Both the position numbers and the translations under genes were made by a program. The notes beneath the pieces were generated by a model that was not told the DNA's origin, searched no databases, and was given only the letters and a program-made list of their open reading frames with translations. This document shows, piece by piece, positions 9,792-42,424 of a stretch of 64,000 bases of DNA. Source of the DNA: Curtobacterium sp. ZW137 (lineage in GTDB: Bacteria; Actinomycetota; Actinomycetes; Actinomycetales; Microbacteriaceae); assembly GCF_003762905.1 (NCBI RefSeq), contig NZ_RJKS01000002.1, positions 790,039-854,038 on the forward strand, read 5' to 3'. Position 1 is the first letter of the stretch. Each line of letters begins with the position of its first letter.

Positions 9792-11663
9792 ATGTCACAA
9801 CACGGAACGCTCAGGGCGCTCGGCGCGACCGCCCTCGCACTCGCCACCGTCATCACCGGCATCAGCGCAGGGCCGGCTGGCGCGAACGCAGCCCCGCACC
9901 TCCGCGCTTCGTACGCCTACACGCCATCCGGTGTCACCTCGTCGGTGAGCGAGAGCGGCATCACCTACCACGGCACCCCGTCGTGCGGTGGGACCTGGGA
10001 CACCTGCAGTCTCTACCTGTCGACGACGACGACCCACACCGTCGGGCTCGGCGACTTGTCGAACGGTGGCACCGTTCCCTGGCCGGCCTCGATCGCCCCG
10101 GGGGCGACGGCGACGCTGTACGTGATGAGCCGCAACTTCTGGCAGTCCCAGGGACACCTCTCTCCTGCCGTTCCCATCACCGTCACCCGCCCGGGCAGCG
10201 TGACCCCGCCGCCGGTACCCGGCGGTGGGCTCGTCACCACCCCCGGGTACGACTACACGATGGACGCGGGCACCACGAAGAAGAACCTGCTCGTGCCCGT
10301 GCAAGCGCGGGCCGACCTGAAGATCTCGGACGGCACGCTCGCGCTGACCGCGCCGTCCGGCACGACGTTCACGCCGGGCCAGACCACCCTGCAGGGCCGC
10401 TACACCACCGGTTCGAACTTCGAGTCCGCACCGTGGCTGAACGCGGTCGGCGAGGTCTCGGCCGACGGCAGGACCTTCATCGGAGTGACGAAGGGGGCGA
10501 AGGACACGACCATCGCCGAGAACGCCTACATCGCCTGGCAGGTCAGCGTCGACGCCGCACCCGCGACCGACGACGGCACCGGAACGCTCGGCCAGCGCTT
10601 CGTCGGCTCCTCGAACCTCGGCTCCTTCAACGTCGCCGGGACCTCCCGGGTGGCGATCACCGGTGTCACGCCGCCGACGCCGATCGACGGGTCCTTCGAC
10701 CCGGCCGGCGTCGGCACTCCGGCCACCGTCCCCGCTGGCACTGTCCAGCCCGTGCACTTCGGCGCCACGGTCACCGAGAAGGTCACCGGCATGCGGGACA
10801 CGAAGGTCGTCCTCACGGCGCCGCGCGGTACCGCGTTCCCCGAGGGCGCGACGACGCTCACCGGCGAGTACGCGTCGGGAGGAGGGTGGAAGCGCACCGA
10901 TTCCCTACGCGTCACCGGTTCGTTGAGCGCCGACCGCACGACGTTCACCGGCACCATGCCCGACTCCGGCCACGGCTTCGAGCTCCCCACGGGCTACAGC
11001 GTCCGCTGGAGCGTCCCCGTCGCCGCTCCCGACGACGCCACGAGCGGCGCCGGTGACCTCGGCTTCACCGTCACGACCACCGTCGGCGAGAAGCCCTTCC
11101 GGATCACCGGCGCATCCCGCGTCACCGTCGAGCAGTCCGTGCGCCCCATCACCGCGAAGGTGGACTCGGTCGACGACGCCGCGCGCACCGCAGCAGTCTC
11201 CGGGACCGCGACGAAGGAAGCCGAGGTCCGCGTCGGCAACACGATCATCGCGAAGGCGGACACCGACGGGAACTGGTCCGGCACGGTCACGAACCTGGTC
11301 GTCGGCAAGCAGGACGTCAGCTTCGCTCAGTACCTGCGCGGCGAGGAGGTCGACGACACCACGATCCCCGTCGAGGTGAAGCAGCTCGAGCTCGCCCCCG
11401 TCACGGTGACCACGCGGACGGTCAGTCCCGGGGAGCAGAACACCATCACCGGCACGGGTGAGCCGGGGGCGACCTTCCGGGTCCTCAAGGCCAACGGCAA
11501 GGAGATCGCCCCTGGGGCACACGTCGTCGGCATCGACGGAACGTGGTCGTTCGACCACGTGGTCGCTGCAGGCTCCAAGCGCTTCCGGTTCGTGATCGAG
11601 CAGTCGAAGTACGGGCAGACCGTCCCGAGCGAGCTCTTCACCGTGCCGGCCGACACGAAGTAG
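9792..11663 (+). CDS. Secreted cell-surface protein with two copies of a novel domain and Ig-like modules
   Basis: A 623-residue exported protein. A signal peptide (TLRALGATALALATVITGIS, cleavage near ANA-AP, about residue 34) is followed by a short N-terminal module containing CGGTWDTC. Two copies of a roughly 140-residue domain follow, at about residues 150-290 and 310-455. The domain is marked by LTAPxGTxFxxGxTTLxGxY, VSADGRTF and GSSNLGSFNVxGxSRV. Two Ig-like modules close the protein (PITAKVDSVDDAARTAAVSG and TVTTRTVSPGEQNTITGTGE). No LPXTG motif or membrane anchor is seen, so it is probably released or held by the glycan. ATG 9792 has AGGAG at 9778-9782. No enzymatic function can be assigned. 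Confidence 0.85.
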   Translation: MSQHGTLRALGATALALATVITGISAGPAGANAAPHLRASYAYTPSGVTSSVSESGITYHGTPSCGGTWDTCSLYLSTTTTHTVGLGDLSNGGTVPWPASIAPGATATLYVMSRNFWQSQGHLSPAVPITVTRPGSVTPPPVPGGGLVTTPGYDYTMDAGTTKKNLLVPVQARADLKISDGTLALTAPSGTTFTPGQTTLQGRYTTGSNFESAPWLNAVGEVSADGRTFIGVTKGAKDTTIAENAYIAWQVSVDAAPATDDGTGTLGQRFVGSSNLGSFNVAGTSRVAITGVTPPTPIDGSFDPAGVGTPATVPAGTVQPVHFGATVTEKVTGMRDTKVVLTAPRGTAFPEGATTLTGEYASGGGWKRTDSLRVTGSLSADRTTFTGTMPDSGHGFELPTGYSVRWSVPVAAPDDATSGAGDLGFTVTTTVGEKPFRITGASRVTVEQSVRPITAKVDSVDDAARTAAVSGTATKEAEVRVGNTIIAKADTDGNWSGTVTNLVVGKQDVSFAQYLRGEEVDDTTIPVEVKQLELAPVTVTTRTVSPGEQNTITGTGEPGATFRVLKANGKEIAPGAHVVGIDGTWSFDHVVAAGSKRFRFVIEQSKYGQTVPSELFTVPADTK

Positions 11664-11692
11664 CAGCACGCGGCGACGATGCCGCATCCACG

Positions 11693-11728
11693 AGGGCCTG
11701 GGGCCGGCGCGAGCCGGCCCCGGGCCCT
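11693..11728 (+). terminator. Hairpin terminator after the 623-aa gene
   Basis: A 16-base stem (11693-11708 with 11713-11728) containing one T/G pair, closed by a GCGA tetraloop, 30 bases after the stop codon. There is no T-run, as is common in high-G+C actinobacteria. Confidence 0.7.
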
Positions 11729-11768
11729 CTGCCGCGCACGGCCGCCTCGTGGAGACGATCGCACTCGG

Positions 11769-11806
11769 TATGTTGATATCTGTATGATGTGTGTGATATT
11801 TTCTTG
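11769..11806 (+). promoter_or_regulatory. GATAT-core upstream element of the 865-aa secreted protein gene
   Basis: GGTATGTTGATATCTGTAT (11767-11785) followed by GTGATATT (11793-11800). It aligns closely with the element at 9706-9724, so the two paralogous secreted-protein genes have related control regions. It lies 104-135 bases before ATG 11904. Confidence 0.5.
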
Positions 11807-11903
11807 GAACGCGGCAAGCCTCCCGGATGGGCCGCGTGTCTCCTGTTACCCGACCCGGCCACCCGACACCACGGCACCGGGCCATCACAGAAAGCACACA
11901 CCC

Positions 11904-14501
11904 ATGCGAAAGCACAAGACCCTCAAGGCGTTCGGCGCGACGGCGCTCGCCGCAGCCACCGTCGCCTCCGGCCTCAGTTTCGGCGCTACCGCCGCCTCCG
12001 CCTCCGCAGCCCCGACCTCGACCGCAGCCACGGAGCGATACGAACCGTTTGTGTACACAGCGAACAAGAATTGGTATGCCGGCGTCGTCCAGAAGAGCCC
12101 GGAATGGGCCCACGACTTCAAGTGGGTTAAGTACCCGACGGAAGCGGCCGCTCGTGCGGCTGCAGTCAAGATCAGCGTGCCGGCCATCGGCACCCCGAGC
12201 ACCCTCAAGGTCGAAGGCCAGGACCTCTGCCTCGCGCTGTCCAACACCGCGTTCGTGGGCTGCTCCAGTACGAGCAGCGACCAGAAGTTCGTCCTCTCCT
12301 CGAACGGCCAGCTGGCTCCGCAGAGTGCGCCTTCGAGACTCATGTACTCGGAAAGCACGGGCACGAACATCGAGTTCGCTGCGGTAGGGACCGCGGCTGC
12401 GGTCCTTTCGGCGGGATGGACGAATCCCGTCGACAATGGCGGATTCGAGCCCTCGCCGGGGTACGACCACGAACTCGAAGCAGGCAAGTCGATGGTCATG
12501 TCGGTACCGGTGTTCACCACGACCGCTGTCACGGTGGAGGGCGGTCTGCTCGCGCTCCAGGCACCCGAAGGAACCACGTTCGCCAAGGGGCAGACCCTCC
12601 TGAAGGGCCGCTCCGGCGACGGGGGACGTTGGTTTGACTACCCGGCACTCAATGTCACTGGTTCGGTCTCGGCCGACGGGAAGTCCTTCCGCGCGGCACT
12701 CCCCGAGAACGTCTCGCTGCCGACCACGATGGTCTTCTCGTGGCTGATCAACGTGACCGCTGACGCGGATGCACCGGACTCGCACGGCCAGCTCAAGCAG
12801 AGCTTCGTCGGCACCTCGAACCTCGGCACGTTCATCGTGAACGGGAACACGAGGGTCACCGTGAAGGCGAGCAAGAACGAGTTCACCGCGGTCGGCGCCT
12901 TCGCGGACGACGTGACGAAGAAGGCCACGATCAGCGGCACCGGCGTGGACGGTTCGACGATGAAGCTCTACGCACCGAACGGTGACGAGATCGACTCGCA
13001 GACCGTGTCCGACGGGAAGTACTCCTTCTCCGTGACTGCGCCGGGCTCCGGTGTCCAGACGTTCAAGGTGTCCCAGACCACGGACGGCGTCGAGTCGCCG
13101 CAGAAGGACGCCCCCCTGGACTACGGCAACGCCGTGGCGATCACGGGTCCGGCCACGGGCAGTGTGACCCCGGGTGATGTCACCGTCACCGGAACCGGTG
13201 TCTCCGGGTCGAAGGTCACCATCACCGGTGGCGCGAAGACGGTCACCACCACCGTCGGCACGGACAACACGTTCTCCGCTCCGGTCGAGATCGCCCCGTC
13301 CAGCTCGATCACGAACATCACCGTGTCGCAGCAGTCCAAGGGCAACCTGACGACGACCGCAGCGGTGAAGGTCACCGCGGACGGCAAGCAGGAGGCCACC
13401 GGCACGGCCATCACCGGCCCCGCGGACGGCGTCTACGAGCCGATGAAGACCACCACCGTCACCGGCACTGCGACCCCGTACGCGACGGTCGTCATCACGA
13501 ACCAGTGGAACGTGTCGATCGCGACGGTCACCGCGGGCAAGGACGGCACGTGGTCCTTCGACCGTGTCTACGGTCCGGCTGCGGAGTACCAGCTCACCGC
13601 CACGCAGACCCGTCTGGACGGCAGCGGGAGCAAGTCCGCCGCGTTCGCGCTCGCACCGCTGGGTTCCTTCAAGAACCTCACGATCGACAACGAAGCACCC
13701 GCGACCTACACCGCCGGCAAGGACTACACCTTCACCGGTACCGCGACCCCGGGCGCCACGATCACGGCCACGAACCAGTGGGGCACGAAGGTCTTCGAGA
13801 CCCGCGCGAACCAGTCCAACGGCACGTGGACCTCGACCCGCCAGTACGGTCCGACCGCCGAGTACACCTTGACGTTCGTCCAGAAGGCTCTCGACGGCAA
13901 GACCGACAAGCGTGAGGGCTTCGTCCTCAAGCCGCTCGTCACCGAGACCCCGATGACGATCACCAGCCACAAGGACGGCGACTCCTACCGCCCGGGCTCG
14001 AACACCTTCACCGGCGTCGGCGCGCCAGGCGCCACCGTCACCGCCCGGAACCAGTGGAACACCGTGATGGGCTCCGCGACCGTGAAGGAGAACGGCGACT
14101 GGGCATTCGAGCGCACCATGGGCCCCTCGGCGCCCTACACGCTCACCTTCACCCAGACCAAGGACGGCAAGACCATCAACACGGTCCCGCTGAACCTCGC
14201 CGCCCCCGTCGTCCAGGACTTCGCCCTCACCAGCCCTGCCGCCGGTGACACCTACACGCCCATGAAGGCCACCACCTTCACCGGCAAGGCATCCGCGTTC
14301 TCGAAGATCACCGTCACGACCACCCTCGGCACCAAGGTCTTCGAGACCGAAGCCGACCAGAAGGGCGATTGGTCGTACACCCGCGCCTACGGCCCGACGA
14401 ACACCTACACGCTCAACTTCGACGAGACCACCACCAACGGCACCACCACCCGCGTCCTGAAGAACTTCATCTTCGCCCCCGACGCACCCGCCACGAAGTA
14501 A
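11904..14501 (+). CDS. Large secreted matrix/adhesin-like protein with tandem Ig-like repeats
   Basis: An 865-residue exported protein. A signal peptide (about residues 1-35) precedes a region with a ricin-lectin-like segment (GQDLCLALSNTAFVGCSS). One copy of the roughly 140-residue domain shared with the upstream protein follows (LLALQAPEGTTFAKGQTLLKG, VSADGKSF, FVGTSNLGTFIVNGNTRVTV). After two divergent Ig-like modules come four closely related repeats of about 80-90 residues from about 13400 to 14490. Each has TFTGxAxPxAxxxxxNQWxT, GxWxxxRxYGP and YTLTFxQ. The ATG at 11904 was chosen because it opens the signal peptide. Such arrays usually form extended stalks. No sortase motif is present. 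Confidence 0.85.
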   Translation: MRKHKTLKAFGATALAAATVASGLSFGATAASASAAPTSTAATERYEPFVYTANKNWYAGVVQKSPEWAHDFKWVKYPTEAAARAAAVKISVPAIGTPSTLKVEGQDLCLALSNTAFVGCSSTSSDQKFVLSSNGQLAPQSAPSRLMYSESTGTNIEFAAVGTAAAVLSAGWTNPVDNGGFEPSPGYDHELEAGKSMVMSVPVFTTTAVTVEGGLLALQAPEGTTFAKGQTLLKGRSGDGGRWFDYPALNVTGSVSADGKSFRAALPENVSLPTTMVFSWLINVTADADAPDSHGQLKQSFVGTSNLGTFIVNGNTRVTVKASKNEFTAVGAFADDVTKKATISGTGVDGSTMKLYAPNGDEIDSQTVSDGKYSFSVTAPGSGVQTFKVSQTTDGVESPQKDAPLDYGNAVAITGPATGSVTPGDVTVTGTGVSGSKVTITGGAKTVTTTVGTDNTFSAPVEIAPSSSITNITVSQQSKGNLTTTAAVKVTADGKQEATGTAITGPADGVYEPMKTTTVTGTATPYATVVITNQWNVSIATVTAGKDGTWSFDRVYGPAAEYQLTATQTRLDGSGSKSAAFALAPLGSFKNLTIDNEAPATYTAGKDYTFTGTATPGATITATNQWGTKVFETRANQSNGTWTSTRQYGPTAEYTLTFVQKALDGKTDKREGFVLKPLVTETPMTITSHKDGDSYRPGSNTFTGVGAPGATVTARNQWNTVMGSATVKENGDWAFERTMGPSAPYTLTFTQTKDGKTINTVPLNLAAPVVQDFALTSPAAGDTYTPMKATTFTGKASAFSKITVTTTLGTKVFETEADQKGDWSYTRAYGPTNTYTLNFDETTTNGTTTRVLKNFIFAPDAPATK
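13400..14490 (+). repeat. Four coding repeats of an Ig-like module
   Basis: Within the 865-residue protein, four units begin at about 13400, 13675, 13950 and 14215. Shared landmarks are TFTG or TVTGTA, then NQW or an equivalent, then G-D/N-W/T plus YGP, then YxLxF/A-Q. The repeats are similar at DNA level, so copy number could vary between strains by recombination. Confidence 0.75.
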
Positions 14502-35567: not shown

Positions 35568-36767
35568 GTGACCACGACTGCTCCCGCCCCCGTCCCCACG
35601 ATCAGCGCCCGCGCCTGGACGATGCTCGCGCTCGGCGTGGCGGCGCAGGCAGCGGGCACCCTCGTCGTCTCCGCTCCGGCGCTGCTCATCCCCTACCTGC
35701 ACGCACAGGGGACGTCGCTCACCCTCGCGGGTGTCCTCGCCGCAGCACCCACCTTCGGCATGGTCCTGACGCTCATCGCCTGGGGCGCGATCACCGACCG
35801 CTTCGGCGAGCGCATCGTGATCGCCGGCGGGCTCGTGCTCACCACGCTGGCGGTCCTCGCCGCGTGGGCCGCGGCCGGCAACCCGGTGCTCCTCGGGCTG
35901 GCGTTCCTCGCAGGCGGCATGACGAGCGCCTCGACGAACGCGGCCAGCGGTCGCGTGGTCGTGGGGTGGTTCCCGAAGGAGCGTCGTGGGCTCGCGATGG
36001 GGATCCGGCAGATGTCGCAGCCGCTCGGGGTGACACTCGCGGCGGTGACCGTGCCGCAGCTCGCCGAGGTGTCGGGCATCCGGGCAGCACTCGTGCTGCC
36101 GATCGTGCTGTGCGCGGTGCTCGCGGTGCTGTGTGCGATCGGGATCGCGAACCCGCCGCGTCCGGCACGGTCGGCCGCGCCGGAGACCGTCACGGCGAAC
36201 CCGTACCGGGCGAACGGCTTCCTGTGGCGGATCCACGCGGTGTCGATCCTGCTCGTGGTGCCGCAGTTCACGCTCTCCACCTACGGCTTGGTGTGGCTCG
36301 TCGGCCTGGGGTGGTCGACACCGGCGGCCGGGCTCCTCGTCGGGGCGTCGCAGTTCGTCGGGGCGATCGGGCGGATCCTCGTCGGCGTCTGGAGCGACCG
36401 CGCGGGCTCGCGGGTCGGCCCGCTGCGGATCGTCGCCGTGAGTGCCGCCGTGGTGATGGCCGTGCTGGCGCTGGTCGACGTGTCGCACCTGGCCGGCGCC
36501 GCGGTGTTCCTGGTCATCGCGACGAGCGTCACGGTGGCGGACAACGGCCTGGCGTACACGTCGGTCGCCGAGGCGGCCGGGCCGTTCTGGTCCGGCCGGG
36601 CACTCGGCGCGCAGAACACGGGGCAGTTCATCGCGGCGAGCGCCGTGGGCCCGGGCATCGGCGCCCTGGTCGGGGCACTCGGCTTCGCGGCGTCGTTCGG
36701 GATCGTCGCGGTGCTGCCCCTCCTGGCACTGCCGCTGGTCCCGCGCGCGGACCGCTCGCACGACTGA
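35568..36767 (+). CDS. MFS transporter (CynX/OxlT-like)
   Basis: A 399-residue major facilitator protein with about 12 membrane helices. The loop 2-3 motif AWGAITDRFGERIVIAGG is the MFS signature, and LVGVWSDRAGSRVGPLR is its counterpart in the second half. It is divergently transcribed from the GntR regulator and is probably its target. Substrate unknown; small organic anions are typical for FadR-linked MFS pairs. GTG 35568 is the start. Partial copies of this or a related gene occur at 38329-38566. Confidence 0.87.
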   Translation: MTTTAPAPVPTISARAWTMLALGVAAQAAGTLVVSAPALLIPYLHAQGTSLTLAGVLAAAPTFGMVLTLIAWGAITDRFGERIVIAGGLVLTTLAVLAAWAAAGNPVLLGLAFLAGGMTSASTNAASGRVVVGWFPKERRGLAMGIRQMSQPLGVTLAAVTVPQLAEVSGIRAALVLPIVLCAVLAVLCAIGIANPPRPARSAAPETVTANPYRANGFLWRIHAVSILLVVPQFTLSTYGLVWLVGLGWSTPAAGLLVGASQFVGAIGRILVGVWSDRAGSRVGPLRIVAVSAAVVMAVLALVDVSHLAGAAVFLVIATSVTVADNGLAYTSVAEAAGPFWSGRALGAQNTGQFIAASAVGPGIGALVGALGFAASFGIVAVLPLLALPLVPRADRSHD

Positions 36768-36790
36768 CCCGGGCGGGACGCCCCGGGCGC

Positions 36791-36878
36791 GCGCGGCTCA
36801 GCGCAGGCGGCTGCGCGGCTCAGCGCAGGCGGCTGCGCGGCTCAACGCAGGCGGCCACACGGCTCAACGCAGGCGGAC
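36791..36878. repeat. Four 22-bp tandem repeats at a gene 3-prime end
   Basis: GCGCGGCTCA-GCGCAGGCGGCT is repeated four times with drift (36791, 36813, 36835, 36857). The last unit contains the C-terminal codons and stop of the WsaF-like gene. Every unit carries the TCA that reads as TGA on the - strand, so the array is a serial duplication of the gene end. Confidence 0.95.
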
Positions 36879-38189
36879 GCCCGGCTCGACACTCATGGCG
36901 AGTTCGTCGAGCACATCGGTGAGCGGGCGCCCGAGGTCGCTCCGGCTCGCGACGCGCTCGGCGGCCGCGGGGGCACCCTCGCTCGTCATCCCGAGCCCCG
37001 CGAGCACAGCGCGAGCGACCGCGGTCCCGAGCGTCGCCGGATCCGCCGGCACTGCGCCGATGCTGGGGTGGAGGCCCGCCCGCGCGCCGCCGAGGTCGTT
37101 GGTGACCACCCGGGCGCCCGACTCGGCCGCATCGAGCGGCGGATGGCTCGGGTGCGGACTCTGCTGGAGGGACAGCACGACGTCGGTTTCACCGAGGACC
37201 TCGAAGTAGCTGTTCCAGTCGAGCGTCCCGAGCGACCTGAGGACGTCGCCGGTGCCGAGCTCCACGGCCTCGTGCTGCTCGCCCGCGGAGACGAACTCGG
37301 CGATGACGCCGGCGTCCCGGAGCTGTGCAGCGGCGGCCGCGAGTGCGGCGACCCCGAGGACGTACATGTTCCTCGGCTTCGACGGGCGCGCGTAGAACAG
37401 CACCCGGGCGGCGGTCCTCGTCGATGCTGCGCGGACGGCCGCCGCACGGTCGATGCCGGCACGGTCGAGTTCGGGTGCGAAGACGAGGCCGGACGCGACG
37501 GCGACGCCCTCGGTCTGCCGGAGCGCGGCGGCGACCGGCTCCGAGTTGACGCAGAGCGTGAAGCCTGCGCGGTAGGTCGACGAGGCGACGGCGAACGCGG
37601 TCGACCACGGCTGGAACCCCGGCTCGTGGTCCTGCACGAGGTAGACCACCCGGCGCGGGTCGACGACCCCGGCACGAGCGGCGACGTCGAGGGCGTGAGC
37701 GGTCTTCCAGTAGGTCGCGATCCACACGGTGTCGGCTGCGAAGACCGCTGCCGGGATCGACTCCCTCGTCACGACCTCGACCGGTCCGCGCCCGGCGAAG
37801 CGCCCGGGGAAGCGCTCGGCGATGAGTGCCGCCGCCCGTTCGGCGCTGTTCCCACGAGACGTCGAGCGCGTCATGACGACACGCAGGTCTCGTCCGGTCC
37901 GGTCGGCGTACCCGATCGCTGCTGCAAGTGCGGTCTGGACGCCCGCGAACGCCGCTCCTCGTCGGACCTCGTCGATGACGAGGACGACTTCCGGGTGGCG
38001 TTCGCCGACCTCGATCCCGGCGAGGACGAGGCTCCGATCGGTCACCCCGTCGTAGACGAGTGCCGCCCGCGGGGCCCGGGAACGTTCGGCGTCGGCAGCC
38101 CTCCGGTCGTCGCGACGTGCGCGGACGCGATCCGCGACGACACCGGCCAGGCGGGCCACCCGGCGCGCATGGGTGATTGAATTTCGCAT
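36864..38189 (-). CDS. WsaF-like rhamnosyltransferase (GT-B)
   Basis: A 441-residue glycosyltransferase. YLVQDHEPGFQPWSTAFAVASSTYRAG near residue 185 resembles the QDYEPxFYPWS-type motif of the WsaF rhamnosyltransferase group. The donor half has RVLFYARPSKPRNMYVLGV and HPSHPPLDAAESGARVVTNDL. ATG 38189 has no Shine-Dalgarno sequence and lies 8 bases after the palindromic AATATCAG-N3-CTGATATT, so the mRNA could be leaderless. Rhamnose specificity is inferred from family resemblance only. Confidence 0.83.
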   Translation of the reverse strand: MRNSITHARRVARLAGVVADRVRARRDDRRAADAERSRAPRAALVYDGVTDRSLVLAGIEVGERHPEVVLVIDEVRRGAAFAGVQTALAAAIGYADRTGRDLRVVMTRSTSRGNSAERAAALIAERFPGRFAGRGPVEVVTRESIPAAVFAADTVWIATYWKTAHALDVAARAGVVDPRRVVYLVQDHEPGFQPWSTAFAVASSTYRAGFTLCVNSEPVAAALRQTEGVAVASGLVFAPELDRAGIDRAAAVRAASTRTAARVLFYARPSKPRNMYVLGVAALAAAAAQLRDAGVIAEFVSAGEQHEAVELGTGDVLRSLGTLDWNSYFEVLGETDVVLSLQQSPHPSHPPLDAAESGARVVTNDLGGARAGLHPSIGAVPADPATLGTAVARAVLAGLGMTSEGAPAAAERVASRSDLGRPLTDVLDELAMSVEPGVRLR

Positions 38190-38197
38190 GCAATCAC

Positions 38198-38216
38198 AAT
38201 ATCAGCATCTGATATT
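38198..38216. promoter_or_regulatory. Perfect palindrome AATATCAG-N3-CTGATATT
   Basis: Two perfect 8-base arms separated by CAT, just upstream of the WsaF-like gene start (38189, - strand). The half-site CTGATAT(T/G) is the clearest version of the motif seen upstream of the secreted protein and BY-kinase genes. It is likely a regulator-binding site overlapping the -10 region. Confidence 0.6.
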
Positions 38217-38240
38217 CATGAACAGGGGAGCCGCGCTCCG

Positions 38241-38566
38241 GCCGGTTGCTCGGGTGCCGTCGCCACCCACGGCGCCGCGCCGAGTGCGAGCAGGGTCCGG
38301 TCACCGATCGCGACGGCATCGAGCGCAGCGTGATCGCCGGCGGGCTCGTGCTCACCACATTGCCGGACCTCGCCGCGTGCGCCGCAGCCAGCAATCCGGT
38401 GCCCCTCTGGCTGGTGATCCTCGCGAGCGGCGGACGCCGCCGCGATCGCCGCCGGCCCGGGCATCGGCGCCCTGGTCGGCGGCGCTCGGCTTCGCAGCGT
38501 CGTTCGGGATCGTCGCGCTGGCGCTGCCGCTGGTCCCGCGTGGACCGTTCGCACGACTGCGTTGGA
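38241..38566. pseudogene. Mosaic remnant of a baeRF-like gene and an MFS gene
   Basis: 38241-38326 matches 39877-39962 (inside the baeRF-like gene) at about 93%. 38329-38432 matches 35816-35919 (inside the MFS gene) at roughly 85%. About 38450-38566 matches the MFS 3-prime end (near 36642-36764), with frame-breaking indels. No frame is open across it. The order baeRF fragment then MFS fragment is what a tandem duplication of an MFS-baeRF pair would leave after decay. Confidence 0.85.
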
Positions 38567-38582
38567 TCCTTGAAAACATGTC

Positions 38583-38595
38583 GTATGTCACATAC
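38583..38595 (+). promoter_or_regulatory. Palindrome upstream of the acyltransferase gene
   Basis: GTATG-TCA-CATAC, a perfect 5-base inverted repeat in an AT-rich patch (38570-38600), ends 9 bases before ATG 38605. The gene has no clear Shine-Dalgarno sequence, so transcription may begin close to the ATG. Confidence 0.4.
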
Positions 38596-38604
38596 TCTTG
38601 TAGG

Positions 38605-39651
38605 ATGCGACGAATCGGATGGCTCGACTCTGCCAAGGGCATCGCCATCATCGGCATCGTGCTCATCCACGCGGTCTCGTGGAGCCCGGCCGCATCGGCT
38701 CCGGCGACCTGGGTCCTCGACCGCCTCGTGGTCTCCCTGCCGGTCTTCTTCCTCGTCTCCGGGATCGTCTCCGGGCCGGCATTGCTCGACGCTGCGGCCG
38801 GTCGACGGCGTCTTGCCGATCGGGTGCTCCCGTTGCTCTGGCTCTACCTGCTCTGGCAACCGGTCGTCCTCGGTTACCGGATCCTCGGCAGCCTGACCAC
38901 CGACGGTGCCGTCGACCTCGTCGGCGAACTCGCCAGGGTCGCCGTCGCTGTCGTCCGGCCGAACGGCGAGATCTGGTACCTGTGGGCGCTCGCCATCCAC
39001 CTCACGCTGGCATGGGCCACACGCCGGCTCCCCACCGCCGCGGTCCTCGCGTCGACCTTCGTGCTTGCCGCCGCCGTGATCGGTTGGGGTCGTGAGATGA
39101 CCGGAGAGGCGACTTGGCACGTTCTCGGGCCCGGCTTGCAAGGACTCCCGGGGTACGCGTTCTTCACCCTGGCAGGAGCTCGCCTCGCACCATGGATCAT
39201 CGCTCGTGTACAGCTGGCGTCACCGGTCGTCGTGATCATCGCCGTCCTCCTGTGGCTCGGGATCGGTGAACTGCACGCGACCGCGGACCCGAGCGTCGCG
39301 TCGCCGCTCGGAGTCGTCCAGGTGTTCGTCGGCACCGCTGCGACCGTCCTCGCTGCTCGGGCAGTGACGCGATGGGCTGCTCCTCTCGCCTGGCTCGGGA
39401 AGTGGTCGGTCGTCCCCTACCTCACCCACACACCAGTCATCGTCGTGCTGCTCGCGATCAGCACGGATGCGGGCTTGCTGCCGCTCCTCTGCGCAAACCC
39501 CACCTGCACGGTGCTCGTGCTGACGACCACCGCCTCCCTCCTCGGCCTTGCCGTGTTCTGGTCGTTCCGCCACACGCCGGCGCGCTTCCTGTTCGAGATG
39601 CCCCCTCGCGCCCGGCGCCTCCTGGCGAGCAGAACGCCCGTTTCCGACTGA
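38605..39651 (+). CDS. Acyltransferase 3 (OafA-like) membrane protein
   Basis: A 348-residue integral membrane acyltransferase with about ten hydrophobic helices. It starts with RIGWLDSAKGIAIIGIVLIHAV, the family hallmark (D-x-x-KG-I-x-I-x-x-V-x-x-H). NGEIWYLWAL and GKWSVVPYLTHTPVI also fit. Such enzymes acylate sugars of surface polysaccharides or antibiotics. Its location among glycan genes, with a similar AT-rich upstream region, suggests it decorates the same polymer. It appears somewhat less G+C-rich than its neighbours, which would fit acquisition. Confidence 0.85.
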   Translation: MRRIGWLDSAKGIAIIGIVLIHAVSWSPAASAPATWVLDRLVVSLPVFFLVSGIVSGPALLDAAAGRRRLADRVLPLLWLYLLWQPVVLGYRILGSLTTDGAVDLVGELARVAVAVVRPNGEIWYLWALAIHLTLAWATRRLPTAAVLASTFVLAAAVIGWGREMTGEATWHVLGPGLQGLPGYAFFTLAGARLAPWIIARVQLASPVVVIIAVLLWLGIGELHATADPSVASPLGVVQVFVGTAATVLAARAVTRWAAPLAWLGKWSVVPYLTHTPVIVVLLAISTDAGLLPLLCANPTCTVLVLTTTASLLGLAVFWSFRHTPARFLFEMPPRARRLLASRTPVSD

Positions 39652-39713: not shown

Positions 39714-40862
39714 TCAGGCCGGGACGGTCGGGCCGACGGGCCAGCGCAGGAGCGCCGCCGCCGCGGCACCGCCGGGCAACGACGCAGCGTTGACGAGCAC
39801 GAGCTCCGCATCCGTCAGCACCGCGGCGCGCACGAGCGCGCACACCGCCGGCACAGGGCCGATCACCGGCGCGCCGGCCGCCTGCTCGGGTGCCGTGGCC
39901 ACCCACGGAGCCGTGCCGAGCGCGAGCAGGGTCCGGTCACCGATCGCGACGGCATCGAGCGCGATCGTCGAGCCCTGCGCCTGCTGCAGCGCCTCGACGA
40001 CGGGGCCGAGCCCGGTCACCGCCTGGTTGTCGCCGCGCCCGACGTGGGTGCGGAGCGAGTCCTCGAGGTCGTGTCGGTGCCCGGCGATGACCCGGGCCAG
40101 TGCGACGCGCACGTGGTCGCCGACGACGGTCTCGTCGAAGCCGCCGCCTGGCACCTCGCTGACGAGACGGCGCGCATCGGACGAGAGCCGCTCGATGAGC
40201 ATCGGACGTGCCTGCAGGTCGCCGGACACCACGATGAGCGCGGGGCTCAGCCGTTCCACCGCCTTGTCGATCGCGGTCGCCACCTCGGCGGTGTTCTGCC
40301 GCCAGATCTCCTCGGTGCGGCCCTGCCATCGGGGCTGCTTCCAGTCGCCGAAGCCGCCCTTCACCTTGTGCTGGTCGAAGGTCTCCCCCTGGATGCGTTG
40401 CTCGTCGTCGGAGTTCCCGGGGTGCCCGAGCTTGTAGGCGCGGTACCCGCCGCCGTCCTTCCCGATCTGGACCACCAGGAACGGCAGGTCGATCGGGCGG
40501 TGGGCGACGAGCGGCACGAGGTCGGGGACGGCTCCGGCGCCGATCGACTCCGCCGCGTGCATCGGACCGGGGAGCACCTCGCTCAACACGAGTTCGCCGT
40601 CGTGCACGAGCACGTACCGAGCCACCGGGGCCGGGATCCCCGGGGTGTCCTCGAGCTCACCGGCGATGACGTCGACCGCGTCGAGATCGGAGCCCTGCGC
40701 GCGGAGCGCCTCCTCGACGGCACGGAGCTTCAGCGCGGCCTGGCGGCGCGGATCCTCGACGTTGGCGGAGGCGTCGACGTAGGCCCACGCCCACGTCCCA
40801 CCACCTTCCAGCCGCTGTCCCAGTACCCGGTGCAGTTCGTTCGTGACGTTGGTCGACGTCAT
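39714..40862 (-). CDS. baeRF family protein (Rv2629-like, eRF1/Vms1-type domain)
   Basis: A 382-residue soluble protein resembling the bacterial/archaeal release-factor-like (baeRF) family that includes mycobacterial Rv2629. The central region has YRAYKLGHP, QRIQGETFDQHKVKGGFGDWKQPRWQGRTEEIWRQN, then LIVVSGDLQARPMLIERL, similar to domain 2 of eRF1/Vms1. Its cellular role is not established; ribosome-associated peptidyl-tRNA release or stress functions have been proposed for relatives. ATG 40862 is preceded by GAGGAG. A fragment of a copy lies at 38241-38326. Confidence 0.8.
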   Translation of the reverse strand: MTSTNVTNELHRVLGQRLEGGGTWAWAYVDASANVEDPRRQAALKLRAVEEALRAQGSDLDAVDVIAGELEDTPGIPAPVARYVLVHDGELVLSEVLPGPMHAAESIGAGAVPDLVPLVAHRPIDLPFLVVQIGKDGGGYRAYKLGHPGNSDDEQRIQGETFDQHKVKGGFGDWKQPRWQGRTEEIWRQNTAEVATAIDKAVERLSPALIVVSGDLQARPMLIERLSSDARRLVSEVPGGGFDETVVGDHVRVALARVIAGHRHDLEDSLRTHVGRGDNQAVTGLGPVVEALQQAQGSTIALDAVAIGDRTLLALGTAPWVATAPEQAAGAPVIGPVPAVCALVRAAVLTDAELVLVNAASLPGGAAAAALLRWPVGPTVPA

Positions 40863-41059
40863 GGCAGCTCCTCTCGGAAGGCGAATCACCGGAGCTCGGT
40901 CGAGCCCCTGCGCTCTCACGTGGTCCCCACCATTCACCGCCACCGCGGATCGCGTTCGCAGATCGGAGCGAACGCCCAGAACGCGAAAGTGCACCGACGC
41001 TCGGTTTTGTGGTTGGCTGAACCGCAACCCCGATCCAACGACGAACCGGAGTGCAGGCA

Positions 41060-42424
41060 ATGACGCCCCCATCACCACGACGCCCCATCACACGACGCCA
41101 GCTGTTCGGCTTCGGGATCGGCGCGGCAGCCACCGGCCTCCTCGCTGGCTGCGCGGTCCCCGGTTCCACGAACGTGAACCGCGCCGCCGTCATCCCCGCC
41201 GCTGCGAGCGGTGAGACCATCACGCTGACGTACTGGGCCTGGCTGAAGGACCTCCAGAAGGTCTGCGACATCTGGAACGCGAAGAACCCGAAGGTCCAGG
41301 TGCAGGCGAACTGGATCCCCGGCGGCAACAGCGGCGGGTACCAGAAGATGTACTCCGCGCTCGCGGCCGGCGGCGGCCCGGACATCGGGCAGGTCGAGCT
41401 CCGGCAGATCCCCGAGTTCATGCTCGCGAACGGCCTGGTCGACCTCGCCCGGTACGGCGCGAAGGACTTCGAGGCGAAGTACGACGAGGCCGCGTGGGCG
41501 CAGGTGTCGTTCGTCGACGGCATCTACGGGATCCCGCAGGACACCGGCCCGATGGGCTTCTACTACCAGACCGCGCTCCTCGAGCAGGCGGGCGGCGAAC
41601 CGCCGAAGACCTGGGACGAGTGGAAGGAGCTCGCCGAGAAGGTCCGGAAGACCGGCAAGCAGAACTACCTCGAGGTGTTCCCCGTCGCCGATGCCTCCCC
41701 GTTCGCCGCGTACGCGCAGCAGGCCGGCGCCCGCTGGTTCAAGGTCGACGGTGACGAGTGGGTCGTGGACATGACCGACGACAAGACGATGATGGTCGCC
41801 GACTTCTTCGACGGCTGCATCGACGACAAGCTCGTCGACACCAGCGCCGGCGCCTACACGCCCGGCTGGTACGCGTCGGCGGCGAGCGGCAAGATCGCCG
41901 CCGTCACGAGTGCGAGCTGGGGCGACGCCCTCATCGAGTCCGTGCAGGGCGGCGAGGGCAAGTGGAAGGTCGCCCAGATGCAGACCTGGGGCGACACGGG
42001 CTTCGGTTCGAGCGCGATCGGCGGCTCGACGGCCGCGGTCCTCGCGAACGCGAAGCACCCGAAGGAGGCGCTCGACTTCATCACGTGGATGACCACCTCC
42101 AAGGAGGGCATCGACGCGATGATCAAGTACTGCGGCATCGGCTGGTCGCCGGCGAAGGACTACATCGGCAAGCAGCGTCAGCAGCCGTCGAAGTGGTTCT
42201 CCGGCCAGAACTACAACGAGGACGTCTTCGTCCCCGCGTCGCAGGAGCAGAACGTCGACTGGTCCTGGTCCCCCGTCACGCAGTCGGCGTTCACGTCGCT
42301 GCAGAACCAGTTCCGCCGCAAGATCACCGGCAACCTCAAGCTGAGCGACGCCGTCGAGCTCGCGCAGCGGGAGATCGTCCAGTCCTTCAAGGACAAGGGC
42401 CTCAGCGTCAGGACGGCACGATGA
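41060..42424 (+). CDS. CUT1 sugar-binding lipoprotein (SBP family 1), Tat signal
   Basis: A 454-residue extracellular solute-binding protein. TRRQLFGFGIGAAATGLLAGC is a twin-arginine lipoprotein signal (Arg12-Arg13, Cys31). The mature part starts TITLTYWAWLKDLQKVCDIWNAKNP and has the family feature GPDIGQVELRQIPEFMLANGLVDL. It delivers a sugar to the two permeases downstream, probably a galactoside given the linked GH2 enzyme. ATG 41060 (GGAG at 41047) is preferred to GTG 41051. The upstream 197 bases hold its promoter, but I see no clear operator. Confidence 0.92.
   Translation: MTPPSPRRPITRRQLFGFGIGAAATGLLAGCAVPGSTNVNRAAVIPAAASGETITLTYWAWLKDLQKVCDIWNAKNPKVQVQANWIPGGNSGGYQKMYSALAAGGGPDIGQVELRQIPEFMLANGLVDLARYGAKDFEAKYDEAAWAQVSFVDGIYGIPQDTGPMGFYYQTALLEQAGGEPPKTWDEWKELAEKVRKTGKQNYLEVFPVADASPFAAYAQQAGARWFKVDGDEWVVDMTDDKTMMVADFFDGCIDDKLVDTSAGAYTPGWYASAASGKIAAVTSASWGDALIESVQGGEGKWKVAQMQTWGDTGFGSSAIGGSTAAVLANAKHPKEALDFITWMTTSKEGIDAMIKYCGIGWSPAKDYIGKQRQQPSKWFSGQNYNEDVFVPASQEQNVDWSWSPVTQSAFTSLQNQFRRKITGNLKLSDAVELAQREIVQSFKDKGLSVRTAR

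Follow-up and report, generated by a model that had tools for sequence, protein, structure and literature searches.

The short tract between two divergent glycan genes in this part of the Curtobacterium sp. ZW137 genome is probably the seam of a decayed tandem duplication. A unit with the order MFS>, acyltransferase>, <wsaF, <baeRF would have been doubled and then reduced by reciprocal loss, all within a block that appears to be exchangeable as a cassette. The window, i.e. the whole 64-kb stretch analysed, is G000:C2:790039-854038 in a 3.9-Mb genome, G000 being the window's own genome. Homology searches covered 66 Curtobacterium genomes, this one included, and the fragments in the seam were compared with aligned MFS genes from 62 relatives and aligned baeRF genes from 59.

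Results

Features of the region

35568..36767, + strand, MFS transporter gene, intact (Pfam MFS_1, E 2e-41)
36790..36887, 4.5 copies of a 22-bp tandem repeat, where MFS and wsaF converge (Tandem Repeats Finder)
36864..38189, - strand, WsaF-like glycosyltransferase gene (Pfam WsaF_C, E 7e-36; WsaF_N, E 4.5e-15)
38198..38216, 19-bp inverted repeat AATATCAGCATCTGATATT, immediately upstream of wsaF (found by script)
38233..38326, - strand, baeRF fragment, copy of 39869-39962, 87/94 identical (93%), E 2e-33
38298..38326, homeologous sequence spanning the join, baeRF CGGTCACCGATCGCGACGGCATCGAGCGC versus MFS CGATCACCGACCGCTTCGGCGAGCGC, with 7 bp of exact microhomology
38327..38431, + strand, MFS fragment 1, copy of 35814-35918, 105 bp, 84%
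38438..38559, + strand, MFS fragment 2, copy of 36632-36766, 122 bp, 82%, E 4e-33
38583..38595, inverted repeat GTATGTCACATAC; a -10-like TACTCT, 6 bases upstream of the acyltransferase ATG, overlaps it
38605..39651, + strand, Acyl_transf_3 (OafA-like) gene (Pfam, E 3e-14)
39714..40862, - strand, baeRF, intact (Rv2629-like ribosome hibernation factor family; Pfam baeRF_family2, E 3.5e-30)
41051..42424, + strand, ABC sugar-transporter binding protein, SBP1 (synteny, trees, identity profiles)

Both the WsaF_N and the WsaF_C domain are present in the WsaF-like gene (Pfam), which has a relative at 58-59% at the corresponding junction of the genome G005. The intact baeRF gene matches baeRF_family2/10 in Pfam and scores 159 bits against NCBIfam NF052289, under the cut-off of 320. 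The name SBP1 was taken from gene context and a reading of the sequence. The 22-bp tandem repeat at 36790-36887 spans the end of the MFS/wsaF intergenic region, the last wsaF codons and the stop.

The seam and the origin of its fragments

The original prediction described six elements: MFS, WsaF-like gene, baeRF fragment, MFS fragments, acyltransferase and baeRF. Alignment shows their order and strands to be exactly as described, and the scar, placed at 38241-38566, measures 38233-38559, a few bases off. In the seam the right end of the unit is fused to its left end, as in the remnant of a tandem duplication: intact MFS lies to the left, intact baeRF to the right, and between them a baeRF fragment is followed by the MFS fragments. 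The MFS portions copied into the scar are 35814-35918 and 36632-36766 in the fragment alignment, with 713 bp of MFS missing between them; the alignment of fragment 1 extends back to 38298 through the homeologous stretch, and that of fragment 2, with 15 gap positions, extends to the original MFS 3ʹ end. Matches with E near 1e-33 are far beyond chance, and an assembly echo is excluded by the 7-18% divergence between copies and sources.

When the fragments were aligned to the intact genes, as had been proposed, the best matches were this genome's own. The two MFS fragments together differ from the own MFS at 25/224 sites in the alignment of 62 relatives, and by at least 39 from every relative with all 224 sites; G010 differs at 40/181. 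The baeRF fragment differs from its own gene at 7/94 sites and from the 59 relatives at 16 or more. Taken alone, MFS fragment 1 is clear (15/105 for the own gene versus 24/105 for relatives) and fragment 2 is narrow (10/119 versus 12/113 in G033, G053 and G059). The own MFS gene differs from the genus majority at 24 of the compared sites, and at 18 of these the fragment has the own base. Since the fragments are closest to their own genes among the relatives aligned, the duplication took place within this lineage. A horizontal transfer that brought in fragments and cargo together from another species could be argued from the inter-species exchange of the block that is supported elsewhere in the genus; since no searched or aligned genome offers any fragment a closer match than its own gene, we consider this explanation very improbable, and a foreign origin of the fragments themselves was rejected.

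The MFS copy has decayed neutrally, without selection. Polarised by the relatives, 20 of the MFS differences are derived in the fragments and 5 in the own gene; the differences fall at codon positions 1/2/3 as 6/7/12, compared with 4/5/27 between intact MFS and G011. The baeRF fragment has 4 derived differences versus 3 in its own gene and is too short to be informative on decay. Overall, ~24/318 fragment sites have changed (7.5%), roughly one third of dS/2 to G062, the synonymous distance dS being 0.46-0.47 for MFS and baeRF. By this rough estimate, the event seems younger than the split from the nearest relatives in the set.

At the join, baeRF up to 39962 continues as MFS from 35814. The two source sites have 7 exact bases in common and are locally similar over 29 bases; the local score of 23 was attained in 82/20000 random baeRF/MFS position pairs, and the probability of a microhomology of at least 6 is 0.004 for this join. 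Such a junction fits illegitimate recombination, which PMC11111574 describes as a route for bacterial tandem duplications. The GC-rich microhomology of under 10 bp, the lack of long repeats, and a duplicate holding genes that look horizontally acquired are features that the seam shares with those duplications; unlike them, the seam duplicate is natural, old and decayed, with no evidence of promoter capture. The original claim that this is the scar of a tandem MFS-baeRF duplication is upheld, and neither outcome named as refuting it was seen: the two genes are adjacent in relatives, and the fragments match no other source better. Comparison of inserts with their own flanks in each of 12 relatives (blastn) returned matches of at most 53 bases with E of at least 1e-4, which we take as chance rather than as similar seams.

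The seam would now carry two divergent promoter regions and has otherwise no evident function. The 19-bp inverted repeat at 38198..38216 is a possible operator or promoter; it is absent upstream of wsaF in G005. The TACTCT that overlaps the inverted repeat at 38583..38595, read by eye, may have a promoter role for the acyltransferase, and a comparable TACTCT or TACTTT precedes the acyltransferase gene in G014 and G057. An open frame (38173-39651) runs through the seam into the acyltransferase, but a start at 38605 is favoured by the promoter-like sequence and by comparison with relatives.

Proposed history of the duplication and its cargo

The unit MFS>, acyltransferase>, <wsaF, <baeRF would have sat between conserved neighbours until illegitimate recombination duplicated it, joining the baeRF site at 39962 to the MFS site at 35808-35814. 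The left copy would then have retained wsaF and lost the acyltransferase, the right copy would have retained the acyltransferase and lost wsaF, and the baeRF::MFS seam decayed to three fragments between two divergent glycan genes. With MFS and the ABC-transporter gene as fixed flanks, the cargo and baeRF between them would be replaced blockwise between species.

Relatives of the acyltransferase suggest that both cargo genes were probably inside the unit before the duplication. In the 65 other genomes, three relatives reach at least 52% (G005, G057 and G014) and two reach 39-40%. All three of the former lie at the MFS-baeRF junction, directly behind intact MFS, by 57, 26 and 38 bp in G005, G014 and G057, respectively; the window's acyltransferase is 45 bp behind the MFS remnant. 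G005, with the order MFS>, acyltransferase>, <wsaF, secreted-type protein, <baeRF, is the only relative with both cargo genes in the proposed ancestral order, and its flanks belong to a different clade from the window's. Doubling a G005-like unit and then losing the acyltransferase from the left copy and wsaF from the right would reproduce the arrangement seen here exactly; the unit thus probably contained the cargo already, and the event changed the gene order. The original prediction placed a glycan gene inside each copy. The order agrees with that part; the two genes need not have been acquired separately, one per copy, both having probably been in the unit beforehand.

Across the family, 17 acyltransferases, the window's included, match at E of 1e-20 or below in 398 sampled genomes, the others being far weaker. 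The two at 39-40% (G039, L159, C1:407702; G041, L160, C1:454880) lie 12-14 kb from the same junction. Away from the junction, wsaF has relatives at 50% or more in 20 of the other genomes, and the own genome has one further copy. In the wsaF tree, the two junction copies (G000 and G005) fall outside the clade of 20 non-junction copies with support 100/100, as does a non-junction copy of G010. Branches in this tree are long, and whether the two junction copies are sisters is uncertain.

An unlikely alternative, the original prediction in its simplest form, is that an empty MFS-baeRF pair was duplicated and wsaF and the acyltransferase were gained separately, one per copy. A junction with no large insert is the commonest state (46/58 relatives), and the nearest relatives, G011 and G062, have no cargo there. 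Against this, the acyltransferase lies as far behind the MFS remnant as its relatives lie behind intact MFS (45 bp versus 26-57 bp), and the G005 junction also combines these two cargo families; the chance of both seems low.

Stacking of two alleles in trans is an explanation that we regard as possible, though improbable. A strain with MFS-wsaF-baeRF would have met DNA of a strain with MFS-acyltransferase-baeRF, and the incoming DNA, joined by homology on one side and by the baeRF::MFS microhomology on the other, would have brought both cargo genes together at once. The same final order would follow without later loss of whole genes. This fits the missing traces of the lost copies: where the lost acyltransferase and wsaF would have been, the gaps of 96 bp and 62 bp gave no remnant of either, just repeats and matches no longer than 14 bases. 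Junctions with an acyltransferase alone do exist (G014 and G057), and cassette exchange occurs at this locus. However, the fragments carry uncommon bases of their own lineage, so both alleles would have to be conspecific or nearly so, and no junction with wsaF alone was found among the loci of 63 relatives examined. Of the proposed history, the duplication within this lineage, the join and the decay of the MFS copy are shown; that the unit already held both cargo genes, and that it was duplicated in cis rather than by the stacking of two conspecific alleles, we infer.

Inserts at the junction across the genus

The MFS-baeRF adjacency that the original prediction relied on is general in the genus: the two genes are convergent neighbours in 59/59 relatives with both on one contig. 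In G064 the contig is cut before MFS, G002 has no baeRF match, and in four relatives MFS without baeRF is followed directly by sugar-transporter genes or LacZ. Outside the genus, no MFS-baeRF adjacency was seen at 14 loci with ~1.5 kb of flank each; of the 299 genomes sampled in the family, 40 from outside the genus had a baeRF relative, and the loci come from these.

Inserts of 1-3.5 kb, defined as spacers exceeding the median by more than 700 bp, occupy this junction in 12/58 relatives. The idea that it is a hot spot for glycan genes thus stands in part: it is an insertion site, and it is not specific for glycan genes, which make up the cargo in 6/12. Glycan-related cargo comprises acyltransferase, wsaF and a secreted protein in G005; acyltransferase alone in G014 and G057; another Acyl_transf_3 in G010; a Wzz/tyrosine-kinase-like protein in G061, with a membrane protein that has no Pfam match and is polymerase-like by eye; and an epimerase in G017, with a weak polysaccharide-synthesis C-terminal match just below the cut-off. 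The other six hold a formate/nitrite channel in four genomes (G008 by Pfam; G003, G007 and G015 near-identical by eye), an MFS exporter with a TetR-like regulator in G055 (named by eye), and a secreted protein with a sub-threshold Ig-like match in G034. The Pfam scan covered nine insert proteins from seven inserts, the others being named by homology or by eye, and no integrase or transposase was seen among the genes called in the 12 inserts. On the MFS tree, the junction requires a minimum of 9 gains or losses, or 11 counting insert type. At the G010 locus (L125, G010:C1:1147679-1148834), baeRF is in three pieces; this genome is 65% complete and sequencing errors are possible.

Other spacers served as controls, four neighbouring pairs (g36-g40) being left out for want of a relative with both genes in place. 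Non-convergent spacers in the block hold 0-3 inserts each, from 0/56 upward, with at most 3/57 left of MFS and 2/26 and 3/39 to the right. Other convergent spacers hold 9/58 (LacZ to the next gene), 5/54 and 0/29. The LacZ junction, ~8 kb from the MFS-baeRF junction, thus receives inserts almost as frequently (9/58 versus 12/58). Tree changes number 9 at the MFS-baeRF junction compared with 7 and 5 at the 9/58 and 5/54 spacers, counting unmeasured genomes as empty for the latter two. Two convergent junctions thus have a clear excess of inserts and a third a weak one, which suggests that inserts tend toward sites where two genes end, away from promoters.

Glycan cargo unique to the MFS-baeRF junction was considered and rejected, as other convergent junctions also receive polysaccharide genes. 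In G026 (L179), a glycosyltransferase and an Alg14-like gene lie at the LacZ junction (Pfam), with a gene set of similar appearance by eye in G034 (L222), and an OafA-like gene was seen by eye in another convergent spacer of G057. Flippase- and polymerase-like genes were also noticed by eye at the LacZ junction in some genomes. The hotspot is real, but it seems to be a property that several convergent ends share in this region, which includes a polysaccharide cluster. That cluster occupies 0-5 kb and 14.6-22 kb in the left part of the window, and 8/10 of its proteins scanned have glycosyltransferase, sugar-modifying or Wzz-type domains. Adjoining it, at 9792-14501 of the window, are two large putative secreted proteins, the second with an N terminus that resembles, by eye, the extra junction gene of G005.

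Tree conflict around baeRF

The baeRF tree conflicts with the MFS and SBP1 trees at points where those two agree with each other. Between G016 and G008, identity is 93-100% up to the end of MFS and again from SBP1, with 85% solely in the last window, at the locus end; across the junction and baeRF it is 65-82%, and G016 lacks the channel gene of G008. In AU tests on groups picked after seeing the trees, the baeRF data reject the MFS/SBP1 groupings of G016 with its clade (p-AU 2e-99), G034/G009 (4e-33) and G005/G027/G028 (5e-28). The MFS tree holds all three groups (support 99, 99 and 92); SBP1 holds two, the five-genome G016 clade being neither recovered nor rejected (p-AU 0.186). The G016/G008 profile and the AU tests indicate recombination tracts bounded by the flanking genes. 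One crossover seems to lie inside baeRF in G005, where the 5ʹ part is G028-like (86-92%) and the remainder is at 72-77%.

In these three tested cases, everything from the end of MFS to the ABC sugar transporter, with baeRF, has been swapped between species as a cassette, most likely by homologous recombination. MFS is the conserved left flank of the exchangeable block and SBP1 its right flank. The baeRF tree was divided into four deep classes; on the MFS, SBP1 and LacI trees, class changes 12, 9 and 10 times, respectively, against a minimum of 3, counts that are inflated by errors in single-gene trees. Fast evolution of baeRF as the source of the variability is unsupported: within-class dN/dS is 0.02-0.12, versus 0.02-0.19 for the flanks (10 pairs).

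Five genomes inspected at this point have an extra small conserved frame (with ELAHEAQSIVQGHGSN or near) just upstream of baeRF and in the same orientation (L098, L114, L107, L104 and L103; ~10100-10760, with MFS on +, between baeRF and SBP1). These genomes come from two of the four baeRF classes, and the frame is a possible partner gene. G052, of the same baeRF class, has a short spacer and seems to be without it.

Discussion

Tandem duplication followed by random loss is a model for gene-order change that is best known from animal mitochondria. The region resembles it in its duplication, its probable reciprocal loss, its new gene order and the remnants at its seam; it differs in lying on a bacterial chromosome and in involving two cargo genes. 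Literature searches on gene order produced by duplication and loss in prokaryotes, and on hotspots at convergent genes, returned nothing relevant by title or start of abstract, and we make no claim of absence. With the seam still readable, this is a clean natural case of gene-order change by duplication and reciprocal loss. The same locus shows small-block exchange through conserved flanks with no mobile element recognised, and two processes that are usually inferred separately are here together.

The hotspot is of a known kind and a clear example of it. Cassette exchange at this locus matches the double-recombination hotspot model of PMC5635113: variable genes lie between conserved flanks with no mobile element recognised, and tree conflict and sharp drops in identity are consistent with exchange through those flanks. 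Unlike in those hotspots, a gene present in most species, baeRF, is swapped here together with cargo genes. The main text of PMC5635113 nowhere uses the word "convergent".

What is the functional significance of the block? Proteins of the Acyl_transf_3 family acylate glycans, among other things. WsaF-like proteins are glycosyltransferases, and the WsaF of Geobacillus is a rhamnosyltransferase (PMC3898925). By their similarity to such proteins, the products of the cargo genes probably decorate a polysaccharide of the cell surface, perhaps the one made by the nearby cluster. We tentatively raise the further idea, which we think rather unlikely, that baeRF itself is the selected item: its four allele classes would be swapped like serotype alleles, and the glycan genes would hitchhike, or both would form one phage-response module. 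Swapping might then perhaps answer ribosome-targeting toxins or phages; a conflict origin has been proposed for baeRF-1 pathways in PMC6514570. As a ribosome-associated factor and surface-glycan genes share one block, the spread of glycan genes through ordinary recombination is testable here.

A repeat family was seen in passing. A 19-bp unit, GACCTCCTACGCGCGATTC, occurs singly and in tandem throughout G000 (e.g. C2:387955-388032 and C1:481851-481909) and also at 4180-4216 of L067; it is absent from the 64-kb window. A 21-mer of the unit, with at most 1 mismatch, has 25 matches in G000, 9 in G052, 2 in G053 and 1 in G005, and none in the other 35 of the 39 genomes searched; a reversed control gave 0. 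The unit looks like a REP-type or terminator repeat, and it is also found in the MFS-baeRF gap of G011 and G062.
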